Shown here one piece after another: positions 3,457 through 44,043 of a DNA stretch of 64,000 nucleotides. The number at the start of each line of letters is the position of its first letter. Within the stretch, counting starts at the first letter, position 1. The position numbers and the translations under genes are program-made. The notes below the pieces were generated by a model that did no database searches, was not told the DNA's origin, and was given only the letters and a program-made list of their open reading frames with translations. Source of the stretch: Spirochaeta africana DSM 8902 (lineage in GTDB: Bacteria; Spirochaetota; Spirochaetia; DSM-27196; DSM-8902); contig NC_017098.1 of the NCBI RefSeq assembly GCF_000242595.2, positions 930,001 to 994,000 on the forward strand. Reading direction: 5' to 3'.

Positions 3457-4317
3457 CTAACCCAAAAGTTGCAAGACTCCCTGAGTACGAACATTGGCCT
3501 GTGCGAGCATAGCCTGGCTGGACTGCATCAGGATCTGGTTCTTTACGAACTCAGCCGATTCAGAAGCCATGTCCGCATCGCGGATGCGGGACTCTGCTGC
3601 CTGCAGGTTTTCTGCACCAATGTCCAGACCCTGGGTAGCGAACTCAAGTCGATTCTGGTATGCGCCGAGGTCAGCACGCTGCTTGTTGATGGTCTGCAGG
3701 GCTGCGTCCAGTGTGCCGATTGCTGAGTTGGCGCTGTCCGGGGTCGACAGGCTGATTACATCCTGTCCGTCCTGGCTCAATACGCCAAGTGCCTGGGCGG
3801 TCATGGTTCCGATGTACACCCGCTCGCGCTGGTCCATGTTGGCCCCGATGTGGAAGTACATCGACGCGGTAACCACGTTGTTGCCCTCGTCTCGTGCAAA
3901 ACGACCGGTCAGCATGTTCATGCCGTTGAACTGGGCATGAGAGGCGATACGGTTAACCTCTGCAACCAGCTGGGATACCTCAACCTGGATCTGCATGCGA
4001 TCCTCGGCGGTGTAGATACCGTTGGCTGACTGCACAGCCAGCTCACGAATGCGCTGCATGATGTCCTGGGACTGCTGCAGGTAGCCTTCGGTGGTCTGGA
4101 TGAACGAGATACCGTTGGTAGCGTTGGTCGAGGCCTGGCGAAGACCGCGAATCTGTGATCGGAGTTTTTCCGATACTGCAAGACCCGAAGCGTCATCACC
4201 GGCGCGGTTGATCCGCAGCCCCGAGCTGAGCTTTTCCATGCTCTTGCTGACAGCACCATCATTCAGACCGAGCTGACGAGAGGCGAACTGGGCGCTCATG
4301 TTGTGATTAATAATCAT
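3457..4317 (-). CDS. flaB: periplasmic flagellar core flagellin FlaB (copy 2)
   Basis: Second FlaB core flagellin, 286 residues, with the same conserved ends as its neighbour ([19 protein letters not shown] at the start, [20 protein letters not shown] near the end, closing in GVLQLLG). The central variable loop differs, carrying [20 protein letters not shown]. The start at 4315-4317 is chosen over an in-frame upstream ATG because AAGGAGG precedes it at proper spacing and the family begins MIINHN. A sigma-28-like promoter lies at 4501-4528, giving a leader of roughly 180 bases. Confidence 0.97.
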
Positions 4318-35570: not shown

Positions 35571-35681
35571 TCTGCAGCGGTGGTGAGTGCTGGCGTTTGC
35601 AGACCCTGGTATTTTCTACTACGCTAGAGAAAAGCCTGCGTGTGGACTGCGTGTCCGGCAGGGTGCGGGCAGGAAAAGCAC

Positions 35682-36046
35682 ATGGCTAAGAATGATTCCC
35701 GGCTTCTGCAGAGTCCTATCATCGGGTACGCCCGGCATCAGATATTATGTGATGATACAGGCCTGCCGAGCGACTACAGATTCCTTGAGGTGAACACTAC
35801 CTTTGAGCACATCACCGGTCTGAAAGCCGACGAGATACTGGGGAACACGGTTCGCCAGGTCCTGCCCGGGATTGAGCGGTCTGCCTTTAACTGGATAGAG
35901 CGCTATGGAAAGATTGCGCTGCAGGGCGGTGAAGAGGAGTTCGAGCAATACAGCGAGATGCTAAAACGCTGGTCCGGGTACATGTCTATTCACCCGATCC
36001 GCAGGAGTTTGTCACCCTGTTTATCGATATAACCTCTACCAAGTAA
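35682..36046 (+). pseudogene. 5' fragment of a broken PAS histidine kinase gene (first PAS domain)
   Basis: From an ATG at 35682 with AGGAAA ahead, the frame gives a PAS domain (YRFLEVNTTFEHITGLKADE). At about 35973 the frame breaks. Continuing in the next frame restores a typical PAS end (RVHVYSPDPQEF, then VTLFIDITSTK) and then meets TAA at 36044-36046. Immediately after the stop, the same frame continues SADELEAFFSVNLDLLCIAD, the start of the next PAS domain. So there are two lesions here, a frameshift and a nonsense codon, in what was one gene extending to 39675. Confidence 0.8.
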
Positions 36047-36076
36047 TCCGCCGATGAGCTGGAAGCATTCTTCTCG

Positions 36077-37189
36077 GTGAATCTGGATCTGCTGTGTATC
36101 GCCGATACCAGCGGCAGATTTCTGAAGACAAACCAGGCCTGGAGCGAGGTTCTCGGCTATTCCAGCCAACAGCTGGAACAGCAGATATTTCTTGATTTTG
36201 TACATCCCGAGGATCTGCCAGCTACCCGGGAAGCATTGCGACAACTGGAGGCCGGGCAGGAGGTGCTGAATTTTACCAACCGGTACCGCAGCGCCGATGG
36301 GGGCTATCGCTACATTGAGTGGCGCTCGCGTCCACATGGTACCCGTATATATGCTGCAGCCCGTGATATCACCAGGCATGTAGAGCGTGATTGGGATGCC
36401 AGTGATCGTTGGAAATTCCAGCATACCGCTGCCGGTGTTGCCGCCGATTTCGCTGCTGTGCAAACCCCCGAGGCGCTTGAAGCCGCGTTCTCATTGGCCC
36501 TGCAGCAAGTGGGTGAATCGGTAGCCGTGGATGCCTGTTACGTGCTTAAATCCAGCAGTCCCGGCATCTTTACCGAAACCCAAAGCTGGCATCGGGATGG
36601 TTCTACCAAGCGTCACCCGGCACCGCTTACCGGTACGGCAGGTGAGTTGTCCTGGCTTTTAGACCGGTTAGGCAGTACTGGAATCGTACAGATTTCTGAT
36701 CTCGAACAACTTCCGCCGGCAGCATCGGGTGAGTATCGCTGGTGGCAGTCACGTGGCGTACGATCGAGTCTGATCCTGCCATTACGCACGCCAGAGTCCG
36801 GTCTGTTCGGAATGCTGATGTTCGAGCACAGTCGCGTCAGTCAGACCTGGAGCGAGGAGCAGCTATCCATGCTGCAGATGCTTGCCGGGATCATGAGTGC
36901 TACCTGCGACCGACTGGCAGCCCGTACCCAACTGCAGCAGAGTGAACAGCGGATCCAGACCATCCTGAACAGTATGGACGACCTGGTATTCGTGCTTGAC
37001 GATAATCTGGTATTCCGGAAGATCCATATATCATCAGCTGCCCAGCTGGTCATGGCGCCAGAAGACTTTCTGGATCAGCCCTTTGCCGGCATAGATTTTC
37101 CCGGCCTGCCCGCTCAACCCTGCTGCAGGCGCTGCGACAATGCCTGGAATCGGGGCAGAGTGTCTCGGCCGGGTATGAACTCGTTCTGA
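36077..37189 (+). pseudogene. middle fragment of the broken hybrid kinase: PAS and GAF domains
   Basis: A 370-codon open frame starting at MNLDLLCIADTSGRFLKTNQ, inside a PAS domain, so the ATG is internal rather than a natural start. It includes a PAS with PAC motif (WRSRPHGTRIYAAARDIT), then a GAF-like domain (VDACYVLKSSSPGIFTETQS, then SLILPLRTPESGLFGMLMF), then the beginning of a third PAS. Near 37110 the frame shifts: the downstream frame reads LLQALRQCLESGQSVSAGYE and joins the 37258 segment. The end of this frame, after PGLPAQPCCRR, is nonsense. Confidence 0.75.
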
Positions 37190-37257
37190 ATCAGCAAACC
37201 CACTGGTTTGATGCGCGGATCTCCTCACTGGGGAATCATCTCTCCAACCCCGAGGGG

Positions 37258-39675
37258 GTGGTGGTTGTTATCCGCGATATTTCCGCACGGGTCCACAAGG
37301 AACAGGAGCTGGATTATCAGCAAAATCTTCTGAAGTCTCTGTATGAGTTGTCACCAATCGGTATCGCATTGAATGATTTTGACACCGGTGCATTTCTGGA
37401 TGTGAATCAGACCTTGCTGGAGCCTACCGGATACAGCAAGGCCGAGTTCCTGGATCTGAGTTACTGGGATGTGCCCCCCCCGGAGTATCAGCCTGCAGAG
37501 GAAAATGCGATTAAAAGTATGCAAGCGACCGGGAGCTATGGCCCGTTTCAGAAGGAATACATTCGCAAGGACGGTAGTCGCTACCCGGTAGAGCTGCGCG
37601 GGATATTTGTTGAAGATATGCGGGGTAATCGCCTGATCTGGTCGTATATCCAGGATATCAGTGAGCAAAAGCGTGCCGAACAGGCACTGAAGGAAGAGCG
37701 CGAGCGTCTGGCCAATATTATTCGCGGCACGAACGTCGGGACCTGGGAATGGAATGTGCAAACCGGCGAGACAGTCTTTAACGAACGTTGGGCGGAGATG
37801 GTTGGCTATAGTCTGGCCGATCTGGCACCGGTTTCGATCAATACCTGGCTGCAGTTTGTGCACCCCGATGACCTGGCGGTAAGCAATCAGCGGCTGGAAC
37901 AGCATTTTACGGGCGAGATTGCGTATTATGAGTTCGAGGGACGCATGCGTCACCGTAACGGCAACTGGATATGGGTACTGGATCGCGGCAGGGTTGCGTC
38001 CTGGACCGAGGATGGGAAACCCCTGATGGTGCTGGGCACGCACCAGGATATTACCGAACGTAAACAGGCAGAGGCAGAGATGCTCAGGGCCAAGGAGACT
38101 GCCGAGGCAGCAAGTCAGGCCAAATCGGAGTTTCTTGCCAACATGAGCCATGAGATTCGCACCCCGCTGAATGCAATCATCGGCTTCAGCGATCTGCTGC
38201 GCACAACAGAGCTCAATGCCACCCAACAGCAGTACCTTGACAACGTAGTCCAGTCGGGCACCTCGCTGCTGGAAATAATCAGCGATATCCTGGATTTTTC
38301 CAAGATAGAGGCCGGCATGCTGGAACTCGAGGTGATTCCGGTGAACCTGCATGAGCTTTTGCAGAACTGTGTGAACACTATCAGCTACGCAGCCAGAAAC
38401 AAGGGACTGCCGGTGGAGCTTGCCATCGCACCGGAGGTGCCGGTTCACGTTCTGACCGATCCGGTCCGGCTCAAGCAGATCCTGATAAACCTGCTGAGCA
38501 ATGCGGTTAAATTTACCGAGACCGGGGAGGTCGAGCTGAGCGCAGCGCCAACTGCAGGGGGGCGTATCAGATTTGCGGTGCGCGATACCGGTATCGGTAT
38601 ATCCTCCGAGCAGCAGAAAAAACTCTTTCATGCCTTTTCCCAGGCGGACAGTTCCACCACGCGAAAGTTTGGCGGGACCGGGCTTGGATTGATTATCTCT
38701 GATATGATAGCCCGAAAGCTTGACAGCAAGATCAAGCTGGACAGCACCCCGGGACAGGGGACGGTGTTCTATCTGGACCTGGAACTGGAGGCGGATCCGA
38801 ATCCCCCTGTATCCTCATCTGCCGATACAACAGCGGAACAGCCCGAAGCTGACAACACCGATCTGGAGGAACTTGCACCCGTGCCAACCCATAGTGTTTC
38901 ACCGCCTGATGAAACCAGAGCAATCTCTGCGTTCACCACTGACCATGCAACAGCTGGTAGAAGGATGCGGATTCTTATTGCTGAGGATGCCTCCATGAAT
39001 ATGCTGCTGATCACCACCTTGCTGCGGCAGATGAATCCCGAATATGAGATCATCGAGGCATACAACGGGCAGCAGGCCCTGGAGCTTGCCACCAGTCGCC
39101 CGGTGGATCTCATTTTTATGGACGTACAGATGCCGGTGCTGGATGGCGTACAGGCAACCACGGCAATACGAGAGCACGAAAAACAGTCCGGTCAGCGAGT
39201 ACCGATTGTTGCGCTCACAGCAGGGGCACTGAAAGAAGAACAGGAACGCTGCCTGCAGGCCGGTATGGATGACTTTCTGACCAAGCCGCTGGATAAATCC
39301 CGACTGAAAACCATGCTGGATACCTATGGTGTCACGCATCAGTCTGTGCAGCCGTATCGTAAGGACAGATTTCTCGAACGCTGTGGGGGGGATGAGGATT
39401 TTGCCAGAACCATGCTTGATCACTTTATGGCTGATCTCCCGAATAAACTGGAGGAACTCAAGCAGAGCATCGGCGCCGGAGACCTGGCTGAAGCCGGACG
39501 TCAGGCTCATCGCATCGGCGGTGTGGCAGCCAATATGGAGATGCCCCTGCTGGCAGCTGCTGCCGGCAGGCTGGAACGGCAGGCAGCTGGCAGGGAAGGG
39601 GATGTCCTGTCTGCATTCGATGAGGTGCAGCAGGAATGGCATGCCATCAGGCTGCTGCTGGGGGACTCTCTCTGA
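37258..39675 (+). CDS. hybrid sensor histidine kinase, 3' part of a broken gene: PAS-PAS-HisKA-HATPase-REC-Hpt
   Basis: An 805-codon intact frame. It begins within a PAS C-terminal strand (VVVIRDISARVHKEQELDY), so the first codon is not a natural start. It contains two further PAS domains, HisKA with His near residue 298 (NMSHEIRTPLNAIIGF), and HATPase with DTGIGISSEQQKKLF and FGGTGLGLIIS. A receiver domain follows (LIFMDVQMPVLDGVQATTAI, phospho-acceptor Asp), then a C-terminal Hpt domain (QAHRIGGVAANM with candidate His). All phosphorelay residues are preserved, so if translation starts internally a soluble BarA-like relay could still be made. The full gene ran from 35682. Confidence 0.8.
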   Translation: MVVVIRDISARVHKEQELDYQQNLLKSLYELSPIGIALNDFDTGAFLDVNQTLLEPTGYSKAEFLDLSYWDVPPPEYQPAEENAIKSMQATGSYGPFQKEYIRKDGSRYPVELRGIFVEDMRGNRLIWSYIQDISEQKRAEQALKEERERLANIIRGTNVGTWEWNVQTGETVFNERWAEMVGYSLADLAPVSINTWLQFVHPDDLAVSNQRLEQHFTGEIAYYEFEGRMRHRNGNWIWVLDRGRVASWTEDGKPLMVLGTHQDITERKQAEAEMLRAKETAEAASQAKSEFLANMSHEIRTPLNAIIGFSDLLRTTELNATQQQYLDNVVQSGTSLLEIISDILDFSKIEAGMLELEVIPVNLHELLQNCVNTISYAARNKGLPVELAIAPEVPVHVLTDPVRLKQILINLLSNAVKFTETGEVELSAAPTAGGRIRFAVRDTGIGISSEQQKKLFHAFSQADSSTTRKFGGTGLGLIISDMIARKLDSKIKLDSTPGQGTVFYLDLELEADPNPPVSSSADTTAEQPEADNTDLEELAPVPTHSVSPPDETRAISAFTTDHATAGRRMRILIAEDASMNMLLITTLLRQMNPEYEIIEAYNGQQALELATSRPVDLIFMDVQMPVLDGVQATTAIREHEKQSGQRVPIVALTAGALKEEQERCLQAGMDDFLTKPLDKSRLKTMLDTYGVTHQSVQPYRKDRFLERCGGDEDFARTMLDHFMADLPNKLEELKQSIGAGDLAEAGRQAHRIGGVAANMEMPLLAAAAGRLERQAAGREGDVLSAFDEVQQEWHAIRLLLGDSL

Positions 39676-39762: not shown

Positions 39763-40476
39763 TTAAAACCTGCGTACCGCGCGTGCACGCTGCAGGGTTG
39801 CTGCATTCAGGTTACGGTTCTCGCCCGTAGAGAAATCAAAGGCACGTGCTCGGTTGGTACCATCCTGGCCACCAAATTGCTCGCCGCTCCAGTAGGCTGC
39901 ATCCAGCAGCAATACCGCTGCTGACGGTTCCGCGACATGCAGATTCTCGTAGATCAGCAGAAGCTCTACAAGCGTTGGCAGCCGCCAGTCTGACGCTTCT
40001 CCTGCAGTGTAAGCCGTGGCCTGGGTTTTCGCATTTTCCCAGGTTACCAGCCCATCTATATCGCCAGGCGCCACCTCAAGGTACGTCCATGTTTCGCTGT
40101 TAGAGGTGTCGACCGCAGCAATAATTCCGCCAGCAGGCCCGGTGTCGCCAATCCAGTATTCCCACTGGGTGGGGTCCGGCTCTTCAGTCTCCGGCTCTTC
40201 AGTCTCCGGCTCTTCAGTCTCAGGCTCTTCAGTCTCAGGCTCTTCAGTCTCAGGCTCTTCAGTCTCAGGCTCTTCAGTCTCAGGCTCTTCAGTCTCAGGC
40301 TCTTCAGTCTCAGGCTCTTCAGTCTCAGGCTCTTCAGTCTCAGGCTCTTCCCCGGCTGGGGTGGTTGTTTCCTCGGAAATATCCTCGGAGCTTGCTGAGC
40401 TTCCCATTGGATTGCTGCAGCCGGCAATCCACAGTGCCAGAATGATAATCACCAAAATACTCCATATGCGTCGCAT
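39763..40476 (-). CDS. lipoprotein with acidic (EEPET)n repeat and DUF1566-like domain
   Basis: 237 residues. Signal and lipobox WIAGC (Cys at about 20), then an unusual spacer of 11 complete EEPET repeats and a partial twelfth (about residues 43-100), then a globular domain with IGDTGPAGGIIAAV, SDWRLPTLVELLLIYENL and AYWSGEQFGG, ending NAATLQRARAVRRF. That is the DUF1566/Lcl-type pattern seen in surface proteins. It is probably an outer-membrane surface lipoprotein on an acidic stalk. Repeat number could change by slippage in 15-bp steps without changing frame. Confidence 0.8.
   Translation of the reverse strand: MRRIWSILVIIILALWIAGCSNPMGSSASSEDISEETTTPAGEEPETEEPETEEPETEEPETEEPETEEPETEEPETEEPETEEPETEEPETEEPETEEPDPTQWEYWIGDTGPAGGIIAAVDTSNSETWTYLEVAPGDIDGLVTWENAKTQATAYTAGEASDWRLPTLVELLLIYENLHVAEPSAAVLLLDAAYWSGEQFGGQDGTNRARAFDFSTGENRNLNAATLQRARAVRRF
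40176..40352 (-). repeat. 15-bp tandem repeat inside the lipoprotein gene
   Basis: The plus-strand unit GGCTCTTCAGTCTCA recurs with an exact 15-base period; GGCTCTTC is found at 40178 and every 15 bases to 40343 (12 occurrences). Two sequence variants exist: TCTCC in the first copies and TCTCA in the rest, so the A variant has expanded more recently. Encodes EEPET. Confidence 0.95.
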
Positions 40477-40604
40477 GATGCGCTCCTTTCAGCCGGATTC
40501 ATCGGCTGGACGTCCGGAAAAGCGGACAAATATACTAAGCAATAACTGTGCCAAGAGGAATAAAGAATAAAGTTATACTATATAAGCAAATAGTTATCGG
40601 GGCG

Positions 40605-40655
40605 CAGGCCGGGCTATGCATTTTGCATAGTTACCGGCCTGTGCTATGCAAAATG
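40605..40655. promoter_or_regulatory. nested and mutually exclusive inverted repeats
   Basis: An outer pair CAGGCCGG (40605-40612) and CCGGCCTG (40634-40641) encloses an inner perfect hairpin CTATGCA-TTT-TGCATAG (40614-40630). Directly downstream, CTATGCAAAATG (40644-40655) can pair perfectly over 12 bp with CATTTTGCATAG (40619-40630), competing with both. It lies about 40-90 bases ahead of the gene at 40692. It could be an RNA switch or a multi-site operator. Nothing else is seen between 40477 and 40691 apart from AT-rich promoter-like sequence. Confidence 0.5.
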
Positions 40656-40691
40656 ATGGACAAAATCGGTAAAAATGTTACGATTGTCGGC

Positions 40692-41237
40692 ATGAGATAC
40701 ATCATTACAGTTATTCTTTTTTGCAGTGCGCTTAGCGCCTTTTCCTACGATATGTGGCAATACAAGAGCCCGGATACACCTGTTCAGCTCTCGTATCCGG
40801 CCTACTGGACGATTGCAGAGTCTGCCGATGAACTGTACATCTCCAACAGTGCGCGGTATCTGAACGCTGACCAGGTAGCTTCGCCGGGAGCTGTGTCTTT
40901 GTATCTGCTGCATGGTCCTGCAGATGCGGTAGAGGCGGAGTTCGATACCGATGATGGTCTCCGCGGTGTGCAGATGGCTATTTTTCAGGAGGCTTTTACC
41001 AGCAGAACCCTGGATGCCTACCGCTATTTCGAGTTCAATACCCGGGAGAAGGAATTCGCCAATGCCGCAGGACTAATCACGCCGTACTACCATAACGAGA
41101 ATGATGTTGTTATCGCATCACTCCGGTTTCCGGAGCACTATGTTGTTATGGTGGGGGTAACCCGCCCCGGCGAGATCCCTCAGCATATCGATACTATCCT
41201 GGCAATTCTGGATTCGGTGCAGGTATCCGGCAATTAA
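40692..41237 (+). CDS. secreted protein of unknown function
   Basis: 181 residues from the ATG at 40692, giving a clean signal peptide (MRYIITVILFCSALSAFS) followed by YDMWQYKSPDTPVQLSYPAY. An upstream in-frame ATG at 40548 would put the inverted-repeat region inside the gene and bury the signal, so it is less likely. The mature part resembles small periplasmic proteins of the PsbP/DUF1795 kind (QLSYPAYWTI ... YHNENDVVIASLRFPEHY) only loosely. It sits 24 bases ahead of a hydrolase gene. Confidence 0.6.
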   Translation: MRYIITVILFCSALSAFSYDMWQYKSPDTPVQLSYPAYWTIAESADELYISNSARYLNADQVASPGAVSLYLLHGPADAVEAEFDTDDGLRGVQMAIFQEAFTSRTLDAYRYFEFNTREKEFANAAGLITPYYHNENDVVIASLRFPEHYVVMVGVTRPGEIPQHIDTILAILDSVQVSGN

Positions 41238-42388: not shown

Positions 42389-43324
42389 TTATATTGTTCG
42401 CCGCCGTTCCCACAGCCACAGCAGCACACTGAACACCAGCATCTGCACAAAGATTTCTGGCAGTCCGAACCACAGGAACTCGAAGAAGCCGCCGCCTTCT
42501 GCCAGATGGGTTGCTATCAGCGGGAAATATCCGCCAGTCGCGATACCGGTCAGGCCGAGGATTGCCAGGAATATGAGTGCCCACCCGTAGCGGGCGGTTC
42601 TGGCATGTCCGACCAATGGGGCCATCCAGACAGCAAGGAGCAGCCCGCGCGGCAGCTGCGTCGGGATGGCCAGGCCGATGATCATATCATCCAGGGAGCG
42701 GTACATGGCGAAAAATCGCAGCTCGGCAAAGGCGGCGGTGTAGTCCTGCAGGTTAAAGAACACCAGGCCGGCACCGGTATAGGTAACAATATGCAGCAGC
42801 ATAAACATCAGTATTCCACGTATATCTGGCTGAAGATTTTTCGGTGGATCCGGTTCGTCGATGGGCTGGGGAACACCTGCTTTCCGGGAGATCCAGACCA
42901 ATCCTGCCGCAAGCAGCAGTGAGTGAACCAGGGTAAGTACCAGAATAACGGCATGCTCCGGTATGGTGGTGAGGGTGTAGATATACCCCTCGATTGAACC
43001 GGGCAGCGGTTCGACCGAACCGATCATACTGATACCCCACAGCGCCCAGAACAGCAGTTGTTTGCTGCGCGGATTGCTCAGCAGACTGGGCAGGAATGGC
43101 AGCAGCACCAGAGCGAGAACTACCCCGCGTATCAGCTGGCCTGCCATATGCCCGAGGCCGAGCAAGCCGGCAGGCAGCCAGTACATCTCGAAAAAGCGTA
43201 CTGCCTCGCTTGAGGGCAGGGCTCGCAGCAGCGGTGCTGCCAGCAGGGCCAGGGTGGCATATATCAGCGTGTGCAGCAGTGCAGACAAGCTGACCCAGCG
43301 AATAGACCAGGAAACCGTTTTCAT
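42389..43324 (-). CDS. multi-pass membrane protein with internal duplication
   Basis: 311 residues with about eight hydrophobic segments in two similar halves. SLSALLHTLIYATLALLAAP, then VRFFEMYWLPAGLLGLG and LIRGVVLALVLLPFL, matches LMFMLLHIVTYTGAGLVFF, then LRFFAMYRSLDDMIIGLA and LPRGLLLAVWMAPLV. This inverted or parallel two-half layout is typical of small transporters or efflux proteins. No family recognised. Its start overlaps the upstream tetR stop by 4 bases, so it is very likely the target of that regulator. Confidence 0.75.
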   Translation of the reverse strand: MKTVSWSIRWVSLSALLHTLIYATLALLAAPLLRALPSSEAVRFFEMYWLPAGLLGLGHMAGQLIRGVVLALVLLPFLPSLLSNPRSKQLLFWALWGISMIGSVEPLPGSIEGYIYTLTTIPEHAVILVLTLVHSLLLAAGLVWISRKAGVPQPIDEPDPPKNLQPDIRGILMFMLLHIVTYTGAGLVFFNLQDYTAAFAELRFFAMYRSLDDMIIGLAIPTQLPRGLLLAVWMAPLVGHARTARYGWALIFLAILGLTGIATGGYFPLIATHLAEGGGFFEFLWFGLPEIFVQMLVFSVLLWLWERRRTI

Positions 43325-43881
43325 GGGGACACCTCCTGTGTATAAAACGCCTGCCCGGCAGACTGCAGCCGGCGCAGTATTTCTGTGTCATCCATTGCCA
43401 GACTGCTGCTGTTCAGCAGCATGGCGAGACCATGGGCATAGATCCACGCATTCAGGATTATGCTGTCCTGTACAGCCTCCGGCATGTGCAGCAGCTCCTG
43501 CCCGGCCGCGCTGTCAGGGGAGAAATCTGCAAGAAATCGCGTGCGGTAATCGTTTGCCGGCGGGAGAGCCCCGCAGCCGAAGAGAAAGCGAAACAGGTTC
43601 TGCTCATCCCGTGCAAATCGTACGTAGCCAAAGGCGGCATCGAGCAGGGGATCCCCGGTGGCCTGTTTTGACTGTTCGGCCAGTAGCAGCCCTCGGACAT
43701 GGATCTGCAGCTGGTCTTCCAGTGCGCGCAGGGATTTCATGCGCGAGTATATCGGCATAGTGGAGGATCCAAGCTCGCCTGCAATGGCGCGGGCAGTCAG
43801 CTGTTCATGCCCTTTGATGCGGATTACCTGTATGGCAGCTTCGAGTATTTCCTGGTGTGGATAGACGTTGGGTTGGTTCAT
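43321..43881 (-). CDS. TetR family transcriptional regulator
   Basis: 186 residues. N-terminal helix-turn-helix (ILEAAIQVIRIKGHEQLTAR, then IAGELGSSTMPIYSRMKSLR) followed by a TetR-like ligand-binding helical domain. The start at 43879-43881 follows AGGAGG. It is translationally coupled to the downstream membrane protein, the common repressor-efflux arrangement. Candidate operators lie at 43911-43943, about 30 bases upstream of the start. Confidence 0.85.
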   Translation of the reverse strand: MNQPNVYPHQEILEAAIQVIRIKGHEQLTARAIAGELGSSTMPIYSRMKSLRALEDQLQIHVRGLLLAEQSKQATGDPLLDAAFGYVRFARDEQNLFRFLFGCGALPPANDYRTRFLADFSPDSAAGQELLHMPEAVQDSIILNAWIYAHGLAMLLNSSSLAMDDTEILRRLQSAGQAFYTQEVSP

Positions 43882-43910
43882 GCTGATCCTCCTGGAGCGT
43901 AATTCAAATA

Positions 43911-43943
43911 ATAACACATGTTTTATAGTATAACAAATGTTTT
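43911..43943. promoter_or_regulatory. candidate TetR operator: paired direct repeats
   Basis: ATAACACATGTTTT at 43911-43924 and ATAACAAATGTTTT at 43930-43943 differ at one base and are 19 bases apart centre to centre. Each is partly palindromic (AACA/TGTT). They lie in the AT-rich gap between tetR and the amino acid ABC operon, so they could control tetR, the transporter, or both. Binding is inference. Confidence 0.5.
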
Positions 43944-44043
43944 TCCGGGTGCAGATGAGCAATCCCTCCCGGATTCTGCTTGATCATCCAGCCGGGATAT
44001 ACGAAATTACAGTGCAACACACTGTACCCCACAGGAGAATGCA

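Follow-up and report, generated by a model that had tools for sequence, protein, structure and literature searches.

A palindromic motif and a sigma-54 promoter element upstream of a predicted lipoprotein gene of Spirochaeta africana, and their recurrence behind a regulator gene across its order

Inverted repeats between two divergent genes

The window (the whole stretch of DNA that was analysed, 64,000 nucleotides of the Spirochaeta africana DSM 8902 genome) contains a cluster of inverted repeats between two divergent genes. The leftward gene (39763-40476, minus strand), which we propose as the target of the element described here, is predicted to encode a 237-aa lipoprotein with a lipobox-like AGC identified by eye, EEPET repeats, and an Lcl_C-like C-terminal domain whose match to Lcl_C (1.5e-7, 32.1 bits) is under the cut-off of 34.9. 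The EEPET repeats are encoded by 15-bp repeats at approximately 40185-40350 of the minus strand, and this tract is a candidate site of length variation. A PAS/GAF/histidine kinase/receiver/Hpt protein (35640-39675), encoded convergently to the lipoprotein gene, is apparently split into three reading frames (35640-36032, 36077-37189 and 37258-39675); these may be a sensor that is broken or translated in separate parts, or a phosphodonor. The rightward gene (40653-41237, plus strand, from the list of open reading frames) encodes a secreted-like protein that starts at 40653 or 40692, and a search from 40692 assigned it to no Pfam family.

The first-pass annotation described an inner arm able to pair either within a nested CTATGCA hairpin or, over 12 perfect base pairs, with sequence just downstream, and we recovered all of these arms. 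An inverted-repeat search placed the CTATGCA/TGCATAG arms at 40614-40620/40624-40630, and the CATTTTGCATAG/CTATGCAAAATG arms, which are 12 nt long and 100% complementary, at 40619-40630/40644-40655. A further outer pair, GCGCAGGCCGG/CCGGCCTGTGC (40602-40612/40634-40644; 11 nt, 91% complementary), begins three bases before the stretch annotated earlier (40605-40655). These outer GC-rich arms flank the CTATGCA palindrome and form a 43-nt hairpin (40602-40644) in the inverted-repeat search and the predicted fold. The folding analysis covered both strands; as RNA, the region 40595-40665 has a folding energy of -35.3 kcal/mol (z -5.1), which none of 200 shuffled sequences equalled. Perfect 12-bp inverted repeats with loops of 3-20 nt occur at five places (seven rows) in the window, and 12 Markov resamples of the window yielded one such repeat in total. 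Based on the shuffled and resampled sequences, the repeat feature is well above chance; long inverted repeats per se occur several times in the window, and the feature is not unique in that respect. A repeated or mobile element was rejected, since a BLAST search of 40540-40720 against the S. africana genome (E ≤ 0.001) returned only the self-match, with no second copy.

A palindromic motif upstream of a sigma-54 element

We counted the palindrome and the sigma-54 consensus across the 3,285,855-base, single-contig genome. The pattern TATGCA-N(1-6)-TGCATA occurs at three places, one in the window and two directly behind one gene for a sigma-54 enhancer-binding protein (EBP); the reversed-pattern control occurs nowhere. 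The perfect sigma-54 element TGGCAC-N5-TTGCW occurs five times, with one occurrence of the reversed control. Two of the five elements adjoin the motif loci, and each has the motif on its upstream side: one at 40553-40538 on the minus strand of the window, and the other behind the EBP gene, at 4250 on the plus strand of its locus (L009). The other three were read by eye: two fall within apparently coding sequence, and one precedes an apparent sigma-70-family gene; this last element (G000:C1:2177057-2177072, L025) has no accompanying motif. The element at 40553-40538 is the only perfect match in the 64-kb window, where three more have one mismatch.

We designate the palindrome CTATGCATTTTGCATAG at 40614-40630 as a predicted upstream activating sequence (UAS), a full EBP site that is identified by the genome pattern count, by a matrix score and by an unseeded word count. 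A putative, degenerate distal half-site on the minus strand, CATTTTGCATAG (40644-40660), was identified by direct reading and by the inverted-repeat search; it lies 30 bp from the first site and matches 12 of 17 bases, scoring only 0.18 bits with a matrix built from relatives. The -24/-12 element, TGGCACAGTTATTGCT (40538-40553, minus strand), was found by pattern scan. From the usual -24/-12 spacing, transcription is predicted to start at 40527 on the minus strand, counted 26 bases from the element's first base; the centre of the UAS would then lie ~95 bp upstream of the start. Relative to the ATG of the lipoprotein gene, the first base of the element is 77 bases away and the motif is at -152. 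The GC-rich outer arms (40602-40644) are absent from the motif that is shared with other loci, CTATGCA-N3-TGCATAG.

The matrix, for which 64 sites past the EBP gene of other genomes were used, gave its best score in the window to 40614-40630, at 25.7 bits, with the next place scoring 16.1 bits. Two lower-scoring places, 8775 (~16 bits) and 7174 (~15 bits), neither with a sigma-54 element of at most one mismatch nearby, were set aside. We judge that a sigma-54 EBP very probably binds at CTATGCA-N3-TGCATAG.

The regulator gene and a putative small RNA across the order

The EBP gene behind which the motif recurs (G000:C1:1328686-1330101; L009 2687-4105) encodes a 472-aa regulator with a receiver domain, a Sigma54_activat domain (AAA+ with GAFTGA) and an HTH_8 domain (Fis-type HTH). 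A pair of motifs, 28 bp apart, starts right after its stop codon. Matches to the EBP at E ≤ 1e-90 were found in 40 of the 46 genomes of the order, including that of S. africana. We analysed 36 loci of relatives, each with a flank of 300 bases or more. This set excludes the six genomes without a match at this threshold, the S. africana locus itself (L041), second, weaker matches (L101, L103 and L104), one fetched piece without the EBP gene (L076), one locus identical to L097 (L078), and three with a flank of less than 300 bases (L055, L099 and L102).

An exact ATGCA-N3-TGCAT lies within 250 bases past the EBP stop codon in 25 of the 36 relatives, compared to a mean of 0.04 in resampled sequences. 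With at most one mismatch allowed, 30 of the 36 have the motif there (resampled mean 0.67), and a sigma-54 element with at most one mismatch is found in exactly those 30 (resampled mean 0.36). The remaining six (L059, L060, L093, L095, L096 and L098) have neither motif nor promoter. Built from the 64 sites in relatives, the matrix gives the sequence CTATGCA-N3-TGCATAG; its core is partly a product of construction, as the sites were gathered with at most one mismatch to ATGCA-N3-TGCAT, a sequence taken from the S. africana genome. Because the sites had been collected with a seed, we repeated the analysis with an unseeded count of gapped 4+4 words. Over the 180 bases that directly follow the EBP gene, the commonest word was ATGC-N5-GCAT, present in 30 of 36 loci, with top words in resampled sequences reaching 4-5 loci. 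Among the top words in bases 100-330 was GGCA-N6-TTGC, present in 18 of 36 loci (resampled tops 5-6). Two features of an EBP-dependent sigma-54 promoter with a UAS are present, namely a perfect -24/-12 element in the window and an upstream site that is conserved with the EBP gene in these 30 of 36 relatives.

We consider it highly likely, on the sequence evidence, that the repeats in the window are a UAS through which the EBP and sigma-54 polymerase would activate the leftward lipoprotein gene (39763-40476). The motif and the promoter element occur as a pair; this pairing is conserved across the order, and a homologous lipoprotein gene has it as well. We infer from the proximity of the motif to its gene that this EBP is the binder. 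The response-regulator EBP, once phosphorylated, would bind CTATGCA-N3-TGCATAG and contact sigma-54 polymerase at the -24/-12 element ~60 bp away via DNA looping, and sigma-54-dependent transcription would then begin leftward into the lipoprotein gene. The same EBP would act on the tandem sites behind its own gene, and a short RNA would be produced.

The same enhancer might also control the rightward operon, for example if the bound EBP repressed transcription over the overlapping plus-strand leader. The UAS lies directly before the alternative start codons of the rightward gene, at 40653 and 40692, but the plus strand near the rightward secreted protein/hydrolase lacks a sigma-54 element with at most one mismatch, and we regard such dual control as unlikely, if the most plausible of the rival readings. 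The rightward secreted-like protein is probably a neighbour rather than a sigma-54 target, and the element appears to serve the strand opposite to the rightward operon. A perfect palindrome is also a generic form of operator, and a weak TetR_C_33 match below its curated cut-off lies nearby; it is nevertheless improbable that the site belongs to another DNA-binding protein, such as a repressor of the divergent gene or genes (for example, the TetR-like product of 43321-43962), since the motif is found behind the EBP gene in most relatives and always together with a sigma-54 site. An earlier suggestion that the CTATGCA/TGCATAG arms may be operator sites was correct in kind, as they look like an EBP enhancer; on the present reading, this enhancer would belong to the leftward lipoprotein gene and not to the rightward operon.

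Least probable of all is that competing hairpins in the leader of the rightward operon (secreted protein and hydrolase) act as an RNA switch or attenuator, the main reading of the first-pass annotation: the arms can indeed pair in two mutually exclusive ways, and the nested hairpin greatly exceeds shuffled sequences in stability, but the alternatives are not balanced, with the best fold containing the 12-bp helix at -24.5 kcal/mol versus -35.3 kcal/mol overall, and a probability of ~6e-8 for the helix (values for the equilibrium fold). This gap of 10.8 kcal/mol is far from the comparable stability expected of two exclusive folds in a riboswitch or attenuator and, together with the recurrence of the motif at many loci of the order, upstream of sigma-54 promoters that belong to other genes, it leaves the RNA-switch reading unsupported. 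Moreover, Rfam matches in this region of the window were all far below gathering scores, and no orthologous leaders of the rightward gene were found, as relatives of its product were absent from 40 related genomes and from a further search.

The UAS and sigma-54 element behind the EBP gene precede a putative small RNA. In the S. africana genome, this RNA would extend from the predicted sigma-54 start over L009 4276-4440 (G000:C1 about 1330275-1330440), and it contains a C-rich stretch, TTCCTCCCTCCC, followed by a terminator-like hairpin. We compared 31 loci, comprising the S. africana locus and the 30 relatives that passed the sigma-54 test. In a crude scan (recounted), a hairpin with four or more T after it was found at 19 of the 31 loci, a T run without a hairpin at two, and neither at 10. 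The word GTAAAAA occurs 66 times on the sense strand and once on the antisense strand in the 220 bases past the predicted start, compared to a mean of 4.5 and a maximum of 12 in resampled sequences; at least one copy is present in 28 of 31 loci, and at least two in 17 of 31. Successive copies of the relaxed word GTAA[AGT]A are spaced 11-13 nt apart in 45 of 59 cases, and the base two before its G is A in 62 of 64. The array is poor in S. africana itself, since its copy has one exact GTAAAAA.

Rfam searches of nine of the 30 loci L041-L070 assigned the putative RNA to no family at gathering score, the sole match being a tRNA, and the flank of the S. africana EBP gene gave one weak match below gathering score. 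Hfq was detected in none of 41 genomes of the set and in five of 14 control genomes. The Hfq of Borrelia is divergent, and an Hfq of this kind might escape detection. The simplest reading is that the GUAAAAA-repeat RNA would be a decoy for some RNA-binding protein, by analogy with the A-rich stretches of CrcZ that titrate Hfq.

Further targets and comparison with known systems

We searched the 46 genomes of the order with a combined pattern (motif, 45-105 bases, TGGCAY-N6-TGC), and found 21 hits in 18 genomes, with none for the control. By hand tally, 13 of the 21 are EBP loci, one (L076) is an RNA-CheY locus whose fetched piece shows no EBP gene alongside, and seven are elsewhere. One of these seven (L073) stops at a contig end; among the matches listed, the other six precede exported-looking proteins. 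Lipoproteins, a label that refers here to lipobox-like sequences judged by eye, follow motif and promoter in the window, at L077, at L090, and at L085 and L086, which share a genus (the scan for Ig-like domains covered only the L086 protein, as L159). At L088, an Ig-domain protein starts ~270 bases from the promoter. The L077 lipoprotein, which has acidic EADDDTT repeats and an Lcl_C-like domain, is from another family and is homologous to the lipoprotein of the window (BLASTP 1e-14). Its motif and promoter are at -179 and -71 of the ATG, compared to -152 and -77 for the window. Against generality, these are the only two of 30 loci encoding an Lcl_C-like domain that have motif and promoter, in a survey whose crude choice of starts may have misplaced some upstream regions. 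One more place (L171, in G009) came from a second, stricter pattern.

A pattern scan of all genomes returned 62 stretches, 13 of them spirochaete-titled and 49 from many phyla; by a rough estimate, ~30 of the 49 could be due to chance. Among the spirochaete-titled stretches, the motif layout precedes a lipoprotein with a Laminin_G_3 domain at L166, and the downstream gene was not readable at L123, L133, L140 and L148. In other Spirochaetales (L110, L131 and L163), the motif and sigma-54 layout precedes HD_5-domain proteins. Pseudomonas-related genomes also have matches to ATGCA-N3-TGCAT with a sigma-54 element (L105, L125, L130, L149, L156, L157, L161 and L165), which could be due to chance or to another EBP.

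The predicted system resembles LuxO-Qrr of Vibrio in combining a response-regulator EBP with sigma-54. LuxO is reported to use one or two palindromic sites at around -89 to -120 of the start, and the qrr1 small RNA gene to adjoin that of the EBP (PMC11443567, PMC10328515, PMC10162802); the range of -89 to -120 is that given for V. fluvialis (PMC11443567). The LuxO site, TTGCA-W3-TGCAA in these reports, differs from the spirochaete ATGCA-N3-TGCAT by one base per half (PMC11443567, PMC10328515, PMC10162802). The S. africana genome has no exact LuxO box, and 15 places match it with one mismatch. Unlike LuxO, the spirochaete EBP scores 286.4 bits against the NCBIfam LuxO equivalog, below its cut-off of 800; it scores higher, 324, with the NtrC model (cut-off 558.6). 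Unlike Qrr, the putative spirochaete RNA has GUAAAAA repeats and, at the loci searched, reached the gathering score of no Rfam family, and it occurs in genomes where Hfq was not detected (0/41). The spirochaete system, unlike LuxO-Qrr, also has predicted surface lipoprotein targets.

In Pseudomonas, crcZ sits just behind cbrB. The CbrB-CrcZ system resembles the predicted one: phosphorylated CbrB is reported to activate, at an RpoN-dependent promoter, an RNA whose repeated A-rich stretches titrate Hfq (PMC4063720). By contrast, the CbrB subsites are described as non-palindromic, with GTAACA-like words (PMC6296734), whereas the spirochaete site is palindromic, and the spirochaete repeat is GUAAAAA with a spacing of ~12 nt, again without detectable Hfq in the 41 genomes. 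The predicted system would work like both LuxO-Qrr and CbrB-CrcZ, and we file it as neither. More tentatively, at somewhat less than even confidence, we suggest an Hfq-independent counterpart of these systems in free-living spirochaetes, in which one EBP would control lipoprotein genes through enhancers and also a sigma-54-dependent GUAAAAA decoy RNA.

The Rrp2-RpoN-RpoS pathway of Borrelia likewise has a spirochaete EBP and ends in lipoprotein expression. Rrp2 is reported to activate rpoS independently of an enhancer, in a study that observed no binding (PMC1976401), in contrast to the conserved enhancer and apparently direct lipoprotein targets of the system described here. A comparative study ties sigma-54 to the cell exterior, including lipoproteins (PMC3162934). 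A literature search by title, with subscription journals mostly outside its scope, found no paper on the CTATGCA-N3-TGCATAG motif or the GUAAAAA RNA.

What had been taken for an RNA switch would thus become an entry point to an order-wide regulon, with a candidate regulator, a binding code, a lipoprotein target and a repeat-bearing small RNA. As Rrp2 reportedly acts without an enhancer at rpoS (PMC1976401), an enhancer code that is conserved in other members of the phylum offers a testable contrast, and the GUAAAAA array predicts the existence of a sequence-specific RNA-binding protein.
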